DNA of 35,109 bases from Rhizobium sp. Q54 (GTDB lineage Bacteria; Pseudomonadota; Alphaproteobacteria; UBA828). Shown here in pieces: positions 6,156 to 25,248 of the stretch. Each line of letters starts with the position of its first letter. The stretch's first letter is position 1. Position numbers and translations under genes: made by a program. The stretch lies in contig CAMDDO010000031.1 of the NCBI GenBank assembly GCA_945892755.1, positions 1-35,109 of the forward strand, in the 5' to 3' direction. The notes below the pieces were generated by a model. The model worked only from the letters and a program-made list of their open reading frames with translations, was not told the origin of the DNA and searched no databases.

Positions 6156-7178
6156 CTACTCCTCCCGCCCCAGGCGGTCCATCAGCTCGCGCCATTCGCG
6201 CACCGAGAGGCCGCTCTCTTTCTGGGTGATCTTCTCTCCTGCGACGAGCCGCTTGATCACAGAGAGTTCAAGCGCGGAAAGTCGCGCGCCACCCATTACA
6301 TAGTCCGCGAACGCCTCATAGCTGAGCGGCACCCAGCGCTTGACGATGTCCGCGATCACGTCGGCATAGACGCGGATTTCATATTGCGCGTGCCTGTCGG
6401 CGCGCAGGCTCAAGAAGTGCAGCAAATTGTGCAGGTCGGTCTTCCAATACCACTCGGTATAGAAATTGGTCGGCAGCACCATGCGCGCGAGCTCGCGCGC
6501 GAGCCCTTTCGCGTTTGGATCGATCGGCTCGCCGGCGTGCTCGTTCAAGAGCTTCTCGTAGTTCGTGTAGGCGCGCCGGCTCTCGGCCCGGATCAGGCGG
6601 ATCGCCTCGGCGGCTTCCTCGGGCGAAAGCCGATCGTCGCGTCCCTGCTTGTTGGTGCGCGATTGGGCGGCAAGGTGCTGAGCTTCGCGCTGGCGCCATT
6701 CATCGCCAAGGAGATCGGGCTGGTCGGCGTCCTCACGTAGCTTGGCGAGTCGCGTGTCGATGCCCTTTTCGTCAGGCACGTAGAACTCACGGCTGAGGAT
6801 CGAATAGCGCCCTGAATACTCGTTCACGTTCGCGGTGCGGTGTCTGATCCATTGGCGCGCGACGAAGATCGGCAGCTTGACGTGCAGCTTGATCTCGCAC
6901 ATCTCGAACGGCGTGGTGTGCCGGTGGCGCATCAAATAGCGGATCAGGCCGCGATCGGACGAGACCTGCGTGGTGCCCTTGCCGTAGGAGACGCGGGCCG
7001 CCTGCACCACCGCGCCGTCATCGCCCATATAGTCGATCAGACGCACGAAGCCGCGGTCGAGCACCGGCAGCGCGGTGTAGAGAATGTCCTCGAGCGCCGG
7101 CACATTGGCCCGCCGCGTCGGGTATTGGGCCTCGCGCAGCGCCTCGATCTCGTCCTGCCCGTCGCGCTCGTCCGCCAT
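6156..7178 (-). CDS. thyX: FAD-dependent thymidylate synthase ThyX
   Basis: ThyX makes dTMP from dUMP using methylene-tetrahydrofolate and FAD/NADPH. It replaces or supplements ThyA. The 340-aa product carries the ThyX signature [13 protein letters not shown] at residues 112-124, corresponding to RHRxxSxNExSxR, with Ala-Asn rather than the usual Ser. A second conserved block, [10 protein letters not shown], sits at 84-93. The protein has extra N-terminal residues and an insert compared with short ThyX proteins, as seen in other alphaproteobacteria. ATG 7178 has a purine-rich GGGGGAGG immediately upstream. The in-frame start at 7241 would leave an unusual basic extension. It is divergent from ssrA. 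Confidence 0.93.
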
Positions 7179-7235
7179 GCCCCTCCCCCGAATCGCGTGG
7201 CGGACTTTAACCTTCGCGGCGGGGGCCCGAAACCC

Positions 7236-7264
7236 TTTCAACCGGGCCTTTGTCCCCCTATATT
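7236..7264 (+). promoter_or_regulatory. putative promoter of the permuted tmRNA gene
   Basis: TTTCAA at 7236-7241 and TATATT at 7259-7264 are separated by 17 bp. A start about 7 bases after the -10 falls at about 7271, where a strong hairpin opens the RNA. The -10 matches consensus well; the -35 only weakly. This is inferred from spacing and position. Confidence 0.45.
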
Positions 7265-7270
7265 AGAGGA

Positions 7271-7556
7271 GCCGGCGGGCGACCGCCGGCTATGGCGATA
7301 AACGCTTCACGGAATAGGCGTAACGGACCCGGGGGCAGTGCCCGGCGCCTCCACCATCCCTCTCGAGGGCGGCGCACCGCGTCGGCTATGGGGGCGACAC
7401 AGGCTCGACGTGCGCAATAAAGGTGTAGTTTTTGCCCGGCATGGTTCCGCCGTTATCGGGCCATTCTAAAAGTGCCAATGATAATGAGATGGCGCTCGCT
7501 GCCTAGCGATAGGTAAGCGCGGTTCGGGGGGCACCGGGCAACAGAAGCCCCCCACT
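7271..7556 (+). ncRNA. ssrA: tmRNA, circularly permuted two-piece alphaproteobacterial type
   Basis: tmRNA rescues stalled ribosomes and adds a degradation tag. The order is permuted: the acceptor piece comes first and the coding piece second. The acceptor piece opens with the hairpin GCCGGCGG-GCGA-CCGCCGGC (7271-7290). It has a T stem CCGGG/CCCGG (7329-7333/7341-7345) and ends CGCCTCC-A-CCA at 7346-7356. After a ~33-nt intervening sequence the coding piece starts GGGGGCGACACAGGCTCGAC at 7390. Its first seven bases pair fully with CGCCTCC (one G-U). A pseudoknot-like helix GCCCG/CGGGC (7434-7438/7457-7461) precedes the tag frame. After the tag a GGGGGGC/GCCCCCC hairpin (7526-7532/7547-7553) closes the piece. 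The mature ends at 7271-7290 and after 7553 are estimates. Confidence 0.93.
7474..7506 (+). other. tmRNA tag-peptide reading frame (ANDNEMALAA-stop)
   Basis: Ten codons beginning GCC AAT GAT AAT and ending GCT GCC TAG encode ANDNEMALAA. With the alanine carried by the tmRNA itself the appended tag is AANDNEMALAA. The ANDN start and the small hydrophobic ALAA end match alphaproteobacterial SsrA tags and the ClpX-recognised C-terminus. There is no start codon because the ribosome resumes here, so gene finders miss it. Confidence 0.92.
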
Positions 7557-7600
7557 TCATGGGGACGTGTCCCGCGAATGGGCGCGTGGGGTGACGAAGC

Positions 7601-8122
7601 GTGAGCAAGGACTTGATCGGCTATGACAACCTGGTCGATGCCGCCTTGCGCGGCGTCGTTCGCCAAGCGCTAAGGAACGTCGCCGAACGTGGCATGCTCG
7701 GGGCGCACCATCTTTACATCTCGTTCCGCACCGGCGACCCGGGCGTCGAGATTCCTGAATTCCTGCACGAGCGCTATCCGGACGAGATGACCATCGTGCT
7801 GCAGCACCAATATTGGGGGCTCGATGCGGCGGACGACGCGTTTTCGGTCGTGCTCTCGTTCAACAAGGCGAAATGCACCTTGACCATCCCTTATGCGGCG
7901 ATCACCCGCTATGCCGACCCCGGCGTGAAATTCGGCCTGCAATTCACCGGCGCCGACGGCGCGGCGGGGGCGCACCAGACCCAAGGCAAGTCGCCCGAAG
8001 CGCTGCCCCCCGCCGCACGGCCCGAGTCAAATGCCACGCCGGCGGCCCCGGCCGGCTCCGACGCCCCTGCCGAATCGCCGGCGGAGAAGGTGATTCGGCT
8101 CGACAGCTTCCGCAAGAAGTGA
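7601..8122 (+). CDS. sspB: SspB-family ClpXP adaptor (alpha type)
   Basis: SspB tethers SsrA-tagged proteins to ClpXP for degradation. The 173-aa product begins MSKDLIGYDNLVDAALRGVV. It keeps the alpha-type SspB core to about residue 120, including HHLYISFRT, IPYAAITRYADPGVKFGLQF and similar strands. A Pro/Ala-rich flexible linker follows. The tail VIRLDSFRKK is basic-hydrophobic and fits the ClpX-docking peptide that ends SspB proteins. The start is GTG at 7601 with GGGGTGA about 9 bases upstream; no ATG fits. It begins only about 45 bp after the tmRNA coding piece, so the tag and its predicted adaptor are neighbours and possibly share a transcript. Confidence 0.92.
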   Translation: MSKDLIGYDNLVDAALRGVVRQALRNVAERGMLGAHHLYISFRTGDPGVEIPEFLHERYPDEMTIVLQHQYWGLDAADDAFSVVLSFNKAKCTLTIPYAAITRYADPGVKFGLQFTGADGAAGAHQTQGKSPEALPPAARPESNATPAAPAGSDAPAESPAEKVIRLDSFRKK

Positions 8123-8136
8123 GCCCGGAGCGGCTC

Positions 8137-8523
8137 GTGTCCGCCAAGCGCGCGCCGCGCCGCCCGCCGCCCGCCGCAGTGACGCGCCTGATCGAATATC
8201 TCGTGCCGCTCGGCGCGGTGACGGCGCGTGCCATGTTCGGCGGCTACGGTATCTATCTCGATGGCACGATCTTCGCGATCGCCGCCGGCGAGCAGATCTT
8301 TTTCAAGATCGATGATACCAGTCGCGCGCGCTATGAGGCGGCGGGGATGTCGGTGTTTCGGCCATTCGACGATCACACCGTTTTGCGCTCCTATTACGAA
8401 GTGCCGCCGACGATTCTCGGCGACGGCGGCTCGGTCCGCGAATGGGCTGCCGAGGCTCACCGCATCGCCCGCCAGCCCCGCGCCACCAAGGCCAGACGTC
8501 GCCTCCGACCCGGCCGCCATTGA
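8137..8523 (+). CDS. TfoX N-terminal domain protein
   Basis: The 128-aa product matches the TfoX_N family pattern: a basic N-terminus, LIEYLVPLGAVTARAMFGGYGIYLDG, IFAIAAGEQIFFKID, and a C-terminal YYEVPP block followed by a basic tail. Full-length TfoX/Sxy regulates competence in gammaproteobacteria. Stand-alone N-domain proteins like this one have no settled role. The start GTG 8137 has CGGAG about 6 bases upstream. It follows sspB by 14 bp and its stop overlaps the next start (TGATG), so the three genes are probably cotranscribed. Confidence 0.85.
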   Translation: MSAKRAPRRPPPAAVTRLIEYLVPLGAVTARAMFGGYGIYLDGTIFAIAAGEQIFFKIDDTSRARYEAAGMSVFRPFDDHTVLRSYYEVPPTILGDGGSVREWAAEAHRIARQPRATKARRRLRPGRH

Positions 8524-9191
8524 TGCCGCTCGATCCCACGCTTTTTGTCGGCTACATCATCGCGGCCGTGCTGATCGTGGTCTCACCCGGACCCGACACC
8601 ATGCTGATCTTGCGCTACACACTGGTCGGGGGACGGCGCGTCGGATTCGCCACGCTCTCCGGCGTGCAGATCGGCATCCTCGGTCACATCGCCGCCGCGG
8701 TGCTCGGCCTTTCGGTGCTGATCGTCTCGGTGCCGGTCGCGTTCAAGGCGGTGGCGATCGCGGGCGCCGCCTATCTTGCCTTCATCGGGTTCCAGGCCCT
8801 GCGCGCCGGCACGCTTCGCATCGCGCCCGACGCGGCGGCCGACGCGCTCGCGATCGGCCATGCCCGCGCCGTACGCGACGCGATCATCACGAATCTGCTC
8901 AATCCGAAAGTGATCATGTTGTTCGTCGCGCTGATGCCGAATTTCGTCGCCCCCGCGCGCGCCTCGGTGCCGCTGCAACTTGCCTTGCTGGGCGCGACCC
9001 TGATCGTGATCAACGTCGCTTGGCAGACCGGCCTGGTGCTCGCCGCCGATCGGTTGCGGCGCTGGCTTGGGCGCCTCTCCGTCCAGCGCGCCATCGCCAT
9101 CGTGACCGGTGTCGTCTTCATCAGCTTCGCCGTGCTGCTCTTGGTCGAGCACGTGCTGCCGGACGGCGACCGCCACGCGACCGGATCATGA
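8523..9191 (+). CDS. LysE/RhtB-family amino-acid exporter
   Basis: The 222-aa integral membrane protein has about six hydrophobic segments. It carries the LysE-family signature VVSPGPDTMLILRYTLVGGRRVGF near residues 20-42, then GAAYLAFIGFQALRAG and the NLLNPKVIMLFVALMPNF block. Members export amino acids or related metabolites such as lysine, homoserine, threonine or cysteine. The substrate cannot be read from the sequence. The start overlaps the TfoX-domain stop by one base, and its stop overlaps the next gene by four bases (ATGA), giving a tight operon. Confidence 0.9.
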   Translation: MPLDPTLFVGYIIAAVLIVVSPGPDTMLILRYTLVGGRRVGFATLSGVQIGILGHIAAAVLGLSVLIVSVPVAFKAVAIAGAAYLAFIGFQALRAGTLRIAPDAAADALAIGHARAVRDAIITNLLNPKVIMLFVALMPNFVAPARASVPLQLALLGATLIVINVAWQTGLVLAADRLRRWLGRLSVQRAIAIVTGVVFISFAVLLLVEHVLPDGDRHATGS

Positions 9192-10486
9192 CACGACGCT
9201 CGATCGAGAGTGCCGGCAGCGCGCCGCTCGAGCTGACCATCGATTCGCTCGGCGCGGGCGGCGACGGCATTGCGCACGAGGGCGCGCGCCGCGTCTTTGT
9301 TCCCTTCACCCTGCCGGGTGAACGCGTGCGCGCGGTGATCGACGAGGATACCGCCGAGGGCGCGCGCGCGCGCCTCGTTGAGCTTCTCACTGCGGCGCCG
9401 GAGCGCGCGGCACCACCCTGTCCTCATTTCGGCACCTGCGGCGGCTGCGCCCTGCAGCATCTCGACGACGGTCTTTATGCCCAAATCAAGACGGCGCGAT
9501 TAGTCGATGCGCTGGCCACTCGCGGCCTGCGCGATGTGCCGCTCGAGCCCTTGGTGCGCGTGCCGCCGCGCTCGAGGCGACGGGTGCGGCTCGCGGCCGT
9601 GGCCAGACGGGGCGTGGTCTCGCTCGGCTTTCGCGCCGCGCGCGGCCGCACCATCATCGATCTCGCGGTCTGCCCGATCATGACGCCCGCAATCGAGGCG
9701 GCGATGGCGCCGCTGCGTGAGGCTCTTGGCCCTGCGCTCAAGGGCGGCGCCGAAATCGAAATCGCCATCACCGAGACCGACAACGGGCTCGATGTGGTGC
9801 TCGCCGGCCTCGACCCGGGTTCATCCGAACGCCGCGCCACGCTCGCGACCCTTGCCCATGAATTAAGACTCGCCCGCCTCTCGGTCGCGGCCACAGGCAC
9901 CCGGCTAGCGGAACCTGTCGCAGTCCTCGCCGACCCCACGATCCGCTTCGCCGGCGTACCGGTCACGCTGCCGCCCGATGCGTTCGTCCAGGCGACGGCC
10001 GCCGGCGAGGCCGCGATCGTTGCGCGCCTGCTTGACGCGGCGAAGGGCGCCCGGCGCGCGGCCGATCTCTATGGCGGGCTCGGCGCGCTTGGCTTGGCGC
10101 TGGCGCGCGCTGGCCTCAAGGTCGAGGCCTTTGATTCGGCGCCCGAGACCGTGGCCGCCCTCCAGGCCGCGTTGCGCCGCGCCAATTTCGGCGATCGGCT
10201 GGGCGCGACGCGCCGCGACCTGGCGCGCGCACCGCTCGATGCCTCGGCGCTCGATAAATTCGATCTGGTGGTCTTCGATCCGCCCCGAGCCGGCGCGGCG
10301 GCGCAGGCAGCGCGGCTCGCCGCCTCGCGCGTCCCTTGCGTGGTCGCGGTCTCGTGCAATCCGGCGACCTTCGCGCGCGATGCCCGGCTCCTGATCGACG
10401 GCGGCTATAGGCCGGAACGCGCGATACCGCTGGATCAATTCCTCTGGTCACCCCATATCGAAATCATCGCCGTGTTCCGGCGTTGA
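9188..10486 (+). CDS. 23S rRNA (uracil-5)-methyltransferase, RlmD/RumA type
   Basis: The 432-aa product is a TrmA/RumA-class SAM-dependent RNA m5U methyltransferase. An N-terminal TRAM-like segment ([29 protein letters not shown], split over residues 15-43) is followed by the [4Fe-4S] ligands Cys78, Cys84, Cys87 and Cys162 in the classical C-x5-C-x2-C-x74-C spacing. The methyltransferase fold has [14 protein letters not shown], the FDPPRAG motif, and [10 protein letters not shown] with nucleophile Cys390. The HIE near the C-terminus supplies the general base. The cluster and length favour the rRNA enzymes (RlmC/RlmD) over tRNA TrmA. Which uridine it modifies is uncertain. ATG 9188 overlaps the LysE-family stop. 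Confidence 0.9.
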
Positions 10487-25171: not shown

Positions 25172-25248
25172 GGGCCCGTAGCTCAACTGGTTAGAGCCGG
25201 CCGCTCATAACGGTCTGGTTGCAGGTTCGAGTCCTGCCGGGCCCACCA
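25172..25248 (+). tRNA. tRNA with CAT anticodon, probably tRNA-Ile2 (lysidine type)
   Basis: A 77-nt cloverleaf with encoded CCA. The acceptor stem GGGCCCG/CGGGCCC is perfect. The D stem is GCTC/GAGC. The anticodon stem GGCCG/CGGTC (one G-U) encloses loop CTCATAA with anticodon CAT at 25206-25208. The T stem is GCAGG/CCTGC with loop TTCGAGT. A CAT anticodon can be elongator Met or the Ile2 whose C34 becomes lysidine. The variable and T-arm region (TGGTTGCAGGTTCGAGTCC) and the G/C acceptor stem look more like Ile2, but this is not certain. It is not initiator Met: that lacks this acceptor pairing. Confidence 0.93.

Follow-up and report, generated by a model that had tools for sequence, protein, structure and literature searches.

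A circularly permuted ssrA gene with a ten-residue tag in an alphaproteobacterial genome

Introduction

The ssrA gene specifies tmRNA, the ribosome-rescue RNA, which in almost all alphaproteobacteria has a rearranged, two-piece form. The tmRNA of E. coli, in contrast, is non-permuted, consists of a single RNA molecule and has more pseudoknots. The tag of Caulobacter tmRNA is longer than 10 residues, and tagged proteins are delivered to ClpXP by an adaptor, SspB. The processing of Caulobacter tmRNA into two pieces and its function have been described (PMC3985003, PMC11915505).

The locus analysed here belongs to Rhizobium sp. Q54 (contig CAMDDO010000031.1); the whole stretch of DNA under analysis, 35,109 nt long, is referred to as the window. 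An initial annotation, made from the letters alone, had proposed that positions 7271-7556 of the + strand carry a permuted alphaproteobacterial ssrA with the tag ANDNEMALAA.

Results

Identification of the locus

When compared with Rfam by cmscan, the window gave a match to the alpha_tmRNA model RF01849 at 7232-7556, with a score of 239.3 bits (E-value 1.8e-68), i.e. well clear of the gathering score of 50 bits. The Infernal comparison that the initial annotation had suggested thus returned a full-length match (model positions 1-355 of 355). The newer general permuted tmRNA model, RF04321, matched 7294-7506 (137.5 bits). ARAGORN independently found a permuted tmRNA (tmRNA*) at 7264-7597, with the same tag followed by a stop. 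The two acceptor arms with a spacer of 20-50 bases between them occurred once in the window and in none of 100 shuffles. The span 7271-7556 proposed at the outset is a fair one: 7271 is the first base of an upstream hairpin and 7556 is the end of the model match.

The two pieces and the spacer

All the elements described below lie on the + strand. The RF01849 alignment places the upstream hairpin, 5' to the acceptor piece, at 7271-7290 (stem 7271-7275/7286-7290). The acceptor piece itself, as delimited by cmscan, the pair map and the pair counts, extends from 7294 to 7356. It contains the 5' strands of three long-range helices (7294-7298, 7304-7310 and 7319-7325), the T arm (7329-7333/7341-7345) and, at its end, the acceptor strand (7346-7352), the discriminator A7353 and an encoded CCA (7354-7356). 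A script check located CGCCTCC-A-CCA at 7346-7356, upstream of the GGGGGCG (7390-7396) that forms the 5' end of the coding piece, and so confirmed the permuted order. It also bore out the claim that the two ends pair over 7 bp with one G-U: the pairs run from 7346-7396 to 7352-7390, the single G-U being 7350-7392. The latter is the third acceptor pair, G3-U70 (G7392-U7350), present in 25 of the 25 aligned sequences; G3-U70 is an alanine identity element. The intervening segment, 7357-7389, is 33 bases long and varies in both sequence and length among relatives (alignment A1, columns 103-192); it is presumably excised, as the Caulobacter precedent suggests.

The coding piece was delimited by cmscan and the alignment to 7390-7556, with an imprecise 3' end. 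Between 7409 and 7436 lie the 3' strands of the helices that join the two pieces, which pair, according to the RF01849 alignment, as 7294-7298/7432-7436, 7304-7310/7423-7429 and 7319-7325/7409-7414. Further downstream are the tag frame and a 3' stem-loop at 7526-7553 (GGGGGGC/GCCCCCC, strands 7526-7532/7547-7553).

The tag

Translation of 7474-7506 yields ANDNEMALAA and a stop, as announced by the initial annotation and as called by ARAGORN. The codons are GCC AAT GAT AAT GAG ATG GCG CTC GCT GCC TAG: the frame has an alanine resume codon (GCC at 7474), an ANDN start, an Ala-Ala end and a stop codon. The tag had also been described as shorter than those of the Caulobacter type, which is correct. 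Its length is nevertheless no oddity, ten residues being the commonest tmRNA tag length overall (PMC11915505) and that of all the tags read in the order, where ANDNEMALAA occurs in three genus members, ANDNEVALAA in 13, ANDNEIAIAA in two and ANDNEVAIAA in one. For the class, 60 loci with an ARAGORN call, a sample taken from the higher-scoring matches and hence not unbiased, gave tags of 10 (11 loci), 11 (5 loci), 12 (40 loci) and 13 residues (4 loci). Since 12 is commonest in the class sample and 10 overall, the tag is a short one by the standards of the class and not by those of bacteria. The notion that the central EM is unusual did not hold: the tag matches 111 genome stretches (see below), relatives carry EV or EI at these positions, and the EM pair is common. 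A text search of the literature for ANDNEMALAA and two similar tags found no papers.

Covariation and folding

The alignment used to assess the helices comprised 25 sequences: the window's own, plus 24 homologues drawn from its order and class. Across them, 97.2% of the helix cells were paired and 15 pairs changed on both sides, against a mean of 5.5 for shuffled alignments and 1-5 for slid controls. In the upstream hairpin, four of the five pairs varied on both sides, with 98.4% of cells paired; the long-range helices linking the two pieces had eight pairs with changes on both sides (pair counts), and the 3' stem-loop had three, with 100% of its cells paired. The seven acceptor-stem pairs were the same in all 25 sequences. 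As no variation among relatives was seen in this stem or in the T stem, covariation neither supports nor contradicts the two, and it is the other helices that carry the support. When the linear precursor was folded as a single strand, with a program that cannot model pseudoknots, its minimum free energy was no better than that of shuffles (z = -0.50); such a value may be met with a GC-rich RNA whose pseudoknots escape the program.

Distribution

The source genome, rated 100% complete, contains exactly one RF01849 match, so that a second ssrA copy was rejected. The same model was matched in 352 of 385 alphaproteobacterial genomes and, within the order, in 19 of 22 genomes (10 of 10 for those of good quality). 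Searched as a DNA pattern, the exact tag was found in 111 stretches of a public genome collection; among the 80 of these matches that were listed, the names are nearly all alphaproteobacterial, including Alphaproteobacteria, Rhizomicrobium, Zavarzinia and Micropepsaceae. ARAGORN found a tmRNA with ANDNEMALAA in 61 of the 111 stretches, and among the remaining ones all 18 loci that were scanned, some of them truncated where the stretch ends, matched RF01849 or RF04321. Two of the 111 (L047, from the metagenome-assembled genome Baikal-deep-G55, and L109) are the public records of two genus relatives, both with the identical tag.

Two peculiar cases were encountered. At L061:5440-5982 (CP070634.1), a permuted tmRNA match obtained with RF04321 only (51 bits) spans 543 bases, over twice the usual span; this is perhaps due to a long insert in the spacer or to a misjoined match. 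The other, L010:3470-3573 (CAJWKQ010000262.1), is the end of an alphaproteobacterial tmRNA on a contig from a bin named Verrucomicrobiales; the contig was probably mis-binned.

Genomic context

About 45 bases past the end of the tmRNA match (7556) starts sspB (7601-8122, + strand), which codes for an alphaproteobacterial SspB adaptor of 173 aa (Pfam PF04386, 128 bits; PDB 2qaz, 'SspB Protein', E-value 1e-31) resembling the crystallised SspB-like proteins 2qas/2qaz and 2nys. The upstream neighbour, thyX (6156-7241, - strand; PF02511, 190.6 bits), is divergent, has an uncertain start codon and is outside the system. In the order, all 19 loci have sspB immediately after ssrA, on the same strand, and thyX divergent upstream; in the class, sspB lies downstream of ssrA at 34 of the 40 loci that were retrieved together with some 1.5 kb of downstream sequence. 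A promoter and terminator scan returned no + strand site, and no sigma-70-like promoter on that strand. Elsewhere in the same genome are smpB (PF01668, E-value 1.2e-57, at G000:C107), clpX (E-value 3.7e-200) and clpP (E-value 3.9e-81). With ssrA, smpB, sspB, clpX and clpP all present, the genome has, on paper, the complete system.

Two other features of the window were recorded. The 752-codon frame at 8228-10486 (+ strand) has RNA uracil-methyltransferase domains (TRAM and tRNA_U5-meth_tr) only in residues 335-746; its first 330 codons are without Pfam match, and its true start may therefore be internal. A tRNA-Met (CAT) was found at 25172-25248 (+ strand) by ARAGORN and the Rfam tRNA model.

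Discussion

The permuted ssrA identity of the locus, tag included, follows from the agreement of two independent programs (Rfam and ARAGORN) with each other and with helix covariation. The gene at 7271-7556 is real, correctly identified and ordinary, of a kind already known.

Two other readings have to be weighed. The locus could be a decayed or non-functional ssrA remnant, the working tmRNA being encoded elsewhere. No evidence in favour of this was found: the score of 239 bits is indeed lower than the best of the class (313 bits), yet it is like those of the order relatives. The uniqueness of the RF01849 match in a genome rated 100% complete, the intact state of the acceptor stem, T arm, CCA, resume codon and tag frame, and the presence of the same tag in two genus relatives already largely refute the remnant reading, to which we grant next to no credence. 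Barely less improbable is the proposal that the gene is permuted in the DNA and that its RNA functions uncut, as a single continuous molecule. The shortness of the intervening segment would suit it, but alanylation requires a free 3' CCA, hence a cut after 7356; the spacer, moreover, is poorly conserved and of variable length, and the homologous Caulobacter RNA is, according to the literature, in two pieces.

That the locus is the alphaproteobacterium's only ssrA, circularly permuted like those seen class-wide, is in our opinion practically certain; its two-piece processing, alanylation, tagging and degradation we infer by homology to the Caulobacter system. On that model, a single precursor would be transcribed, acceptor half first, and processing would remove the 33-base segment, probably through RNase P cleavage at 7390 together with a 3'-end pathway that spares the CCA at 7354-7356. 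The two resulting RNAs would stay joined via the acceptor stem and the long-range helices, and the product would be charged with alanine by virtue of G3-U70. Together with SmpB, the charged tmRNA would then enter stalled ribosomes and append A-ANDNEMALAA to the nascent chain, a tag that SspB and ClpXP would recognise.

The outcome is that a housekeeping RNA is cleanly annotated and that the genome is seen to rely on the rescue system usual among alphaproteobacteria, with a short tag. Of modest use is the observation that ssrA and sspB are often neighbours, on which the titles and abstracts searched gave nothing; an earlier description elsewhere is possible. The conserved same-strand placement might reflect co-transcription, with one transcript yielding both the RNA that makes the tag and the adaptor that reads it, a proposal that we make tentatively and hold to be rather unlikely.

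Among the known systems, the E. coli one-piece tmRNA (RF00023) has in common with this locus G3-U70, a tag of 10 coded residues and the ALAA end of that tag (ANDENYALAA in E. coli). The permuted tmRNAs found in Micropepsales and further alphaproteobacteria, such as that of Rhizomicrobium electricum DSM 21034 (L023), combine the identical ANDNEMALAA with the RF01849 architecture and differ by a diverged spacer and sequence, sspB being sometimes missing from the fetched stretch. The Caulobacter crescentus ssrA, the type example of RF01849, shares the order acceptor piece, spacer, coding piece, as well as the T arm, the G3-U70 acceptor stem, the encoded CCA, a tag starting with ANDN and the presence of sspB in the genome. 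No difference in architecture was seen between the two; what sets the present gene apart is its tag of 10 coded residues, ending in ALAA.
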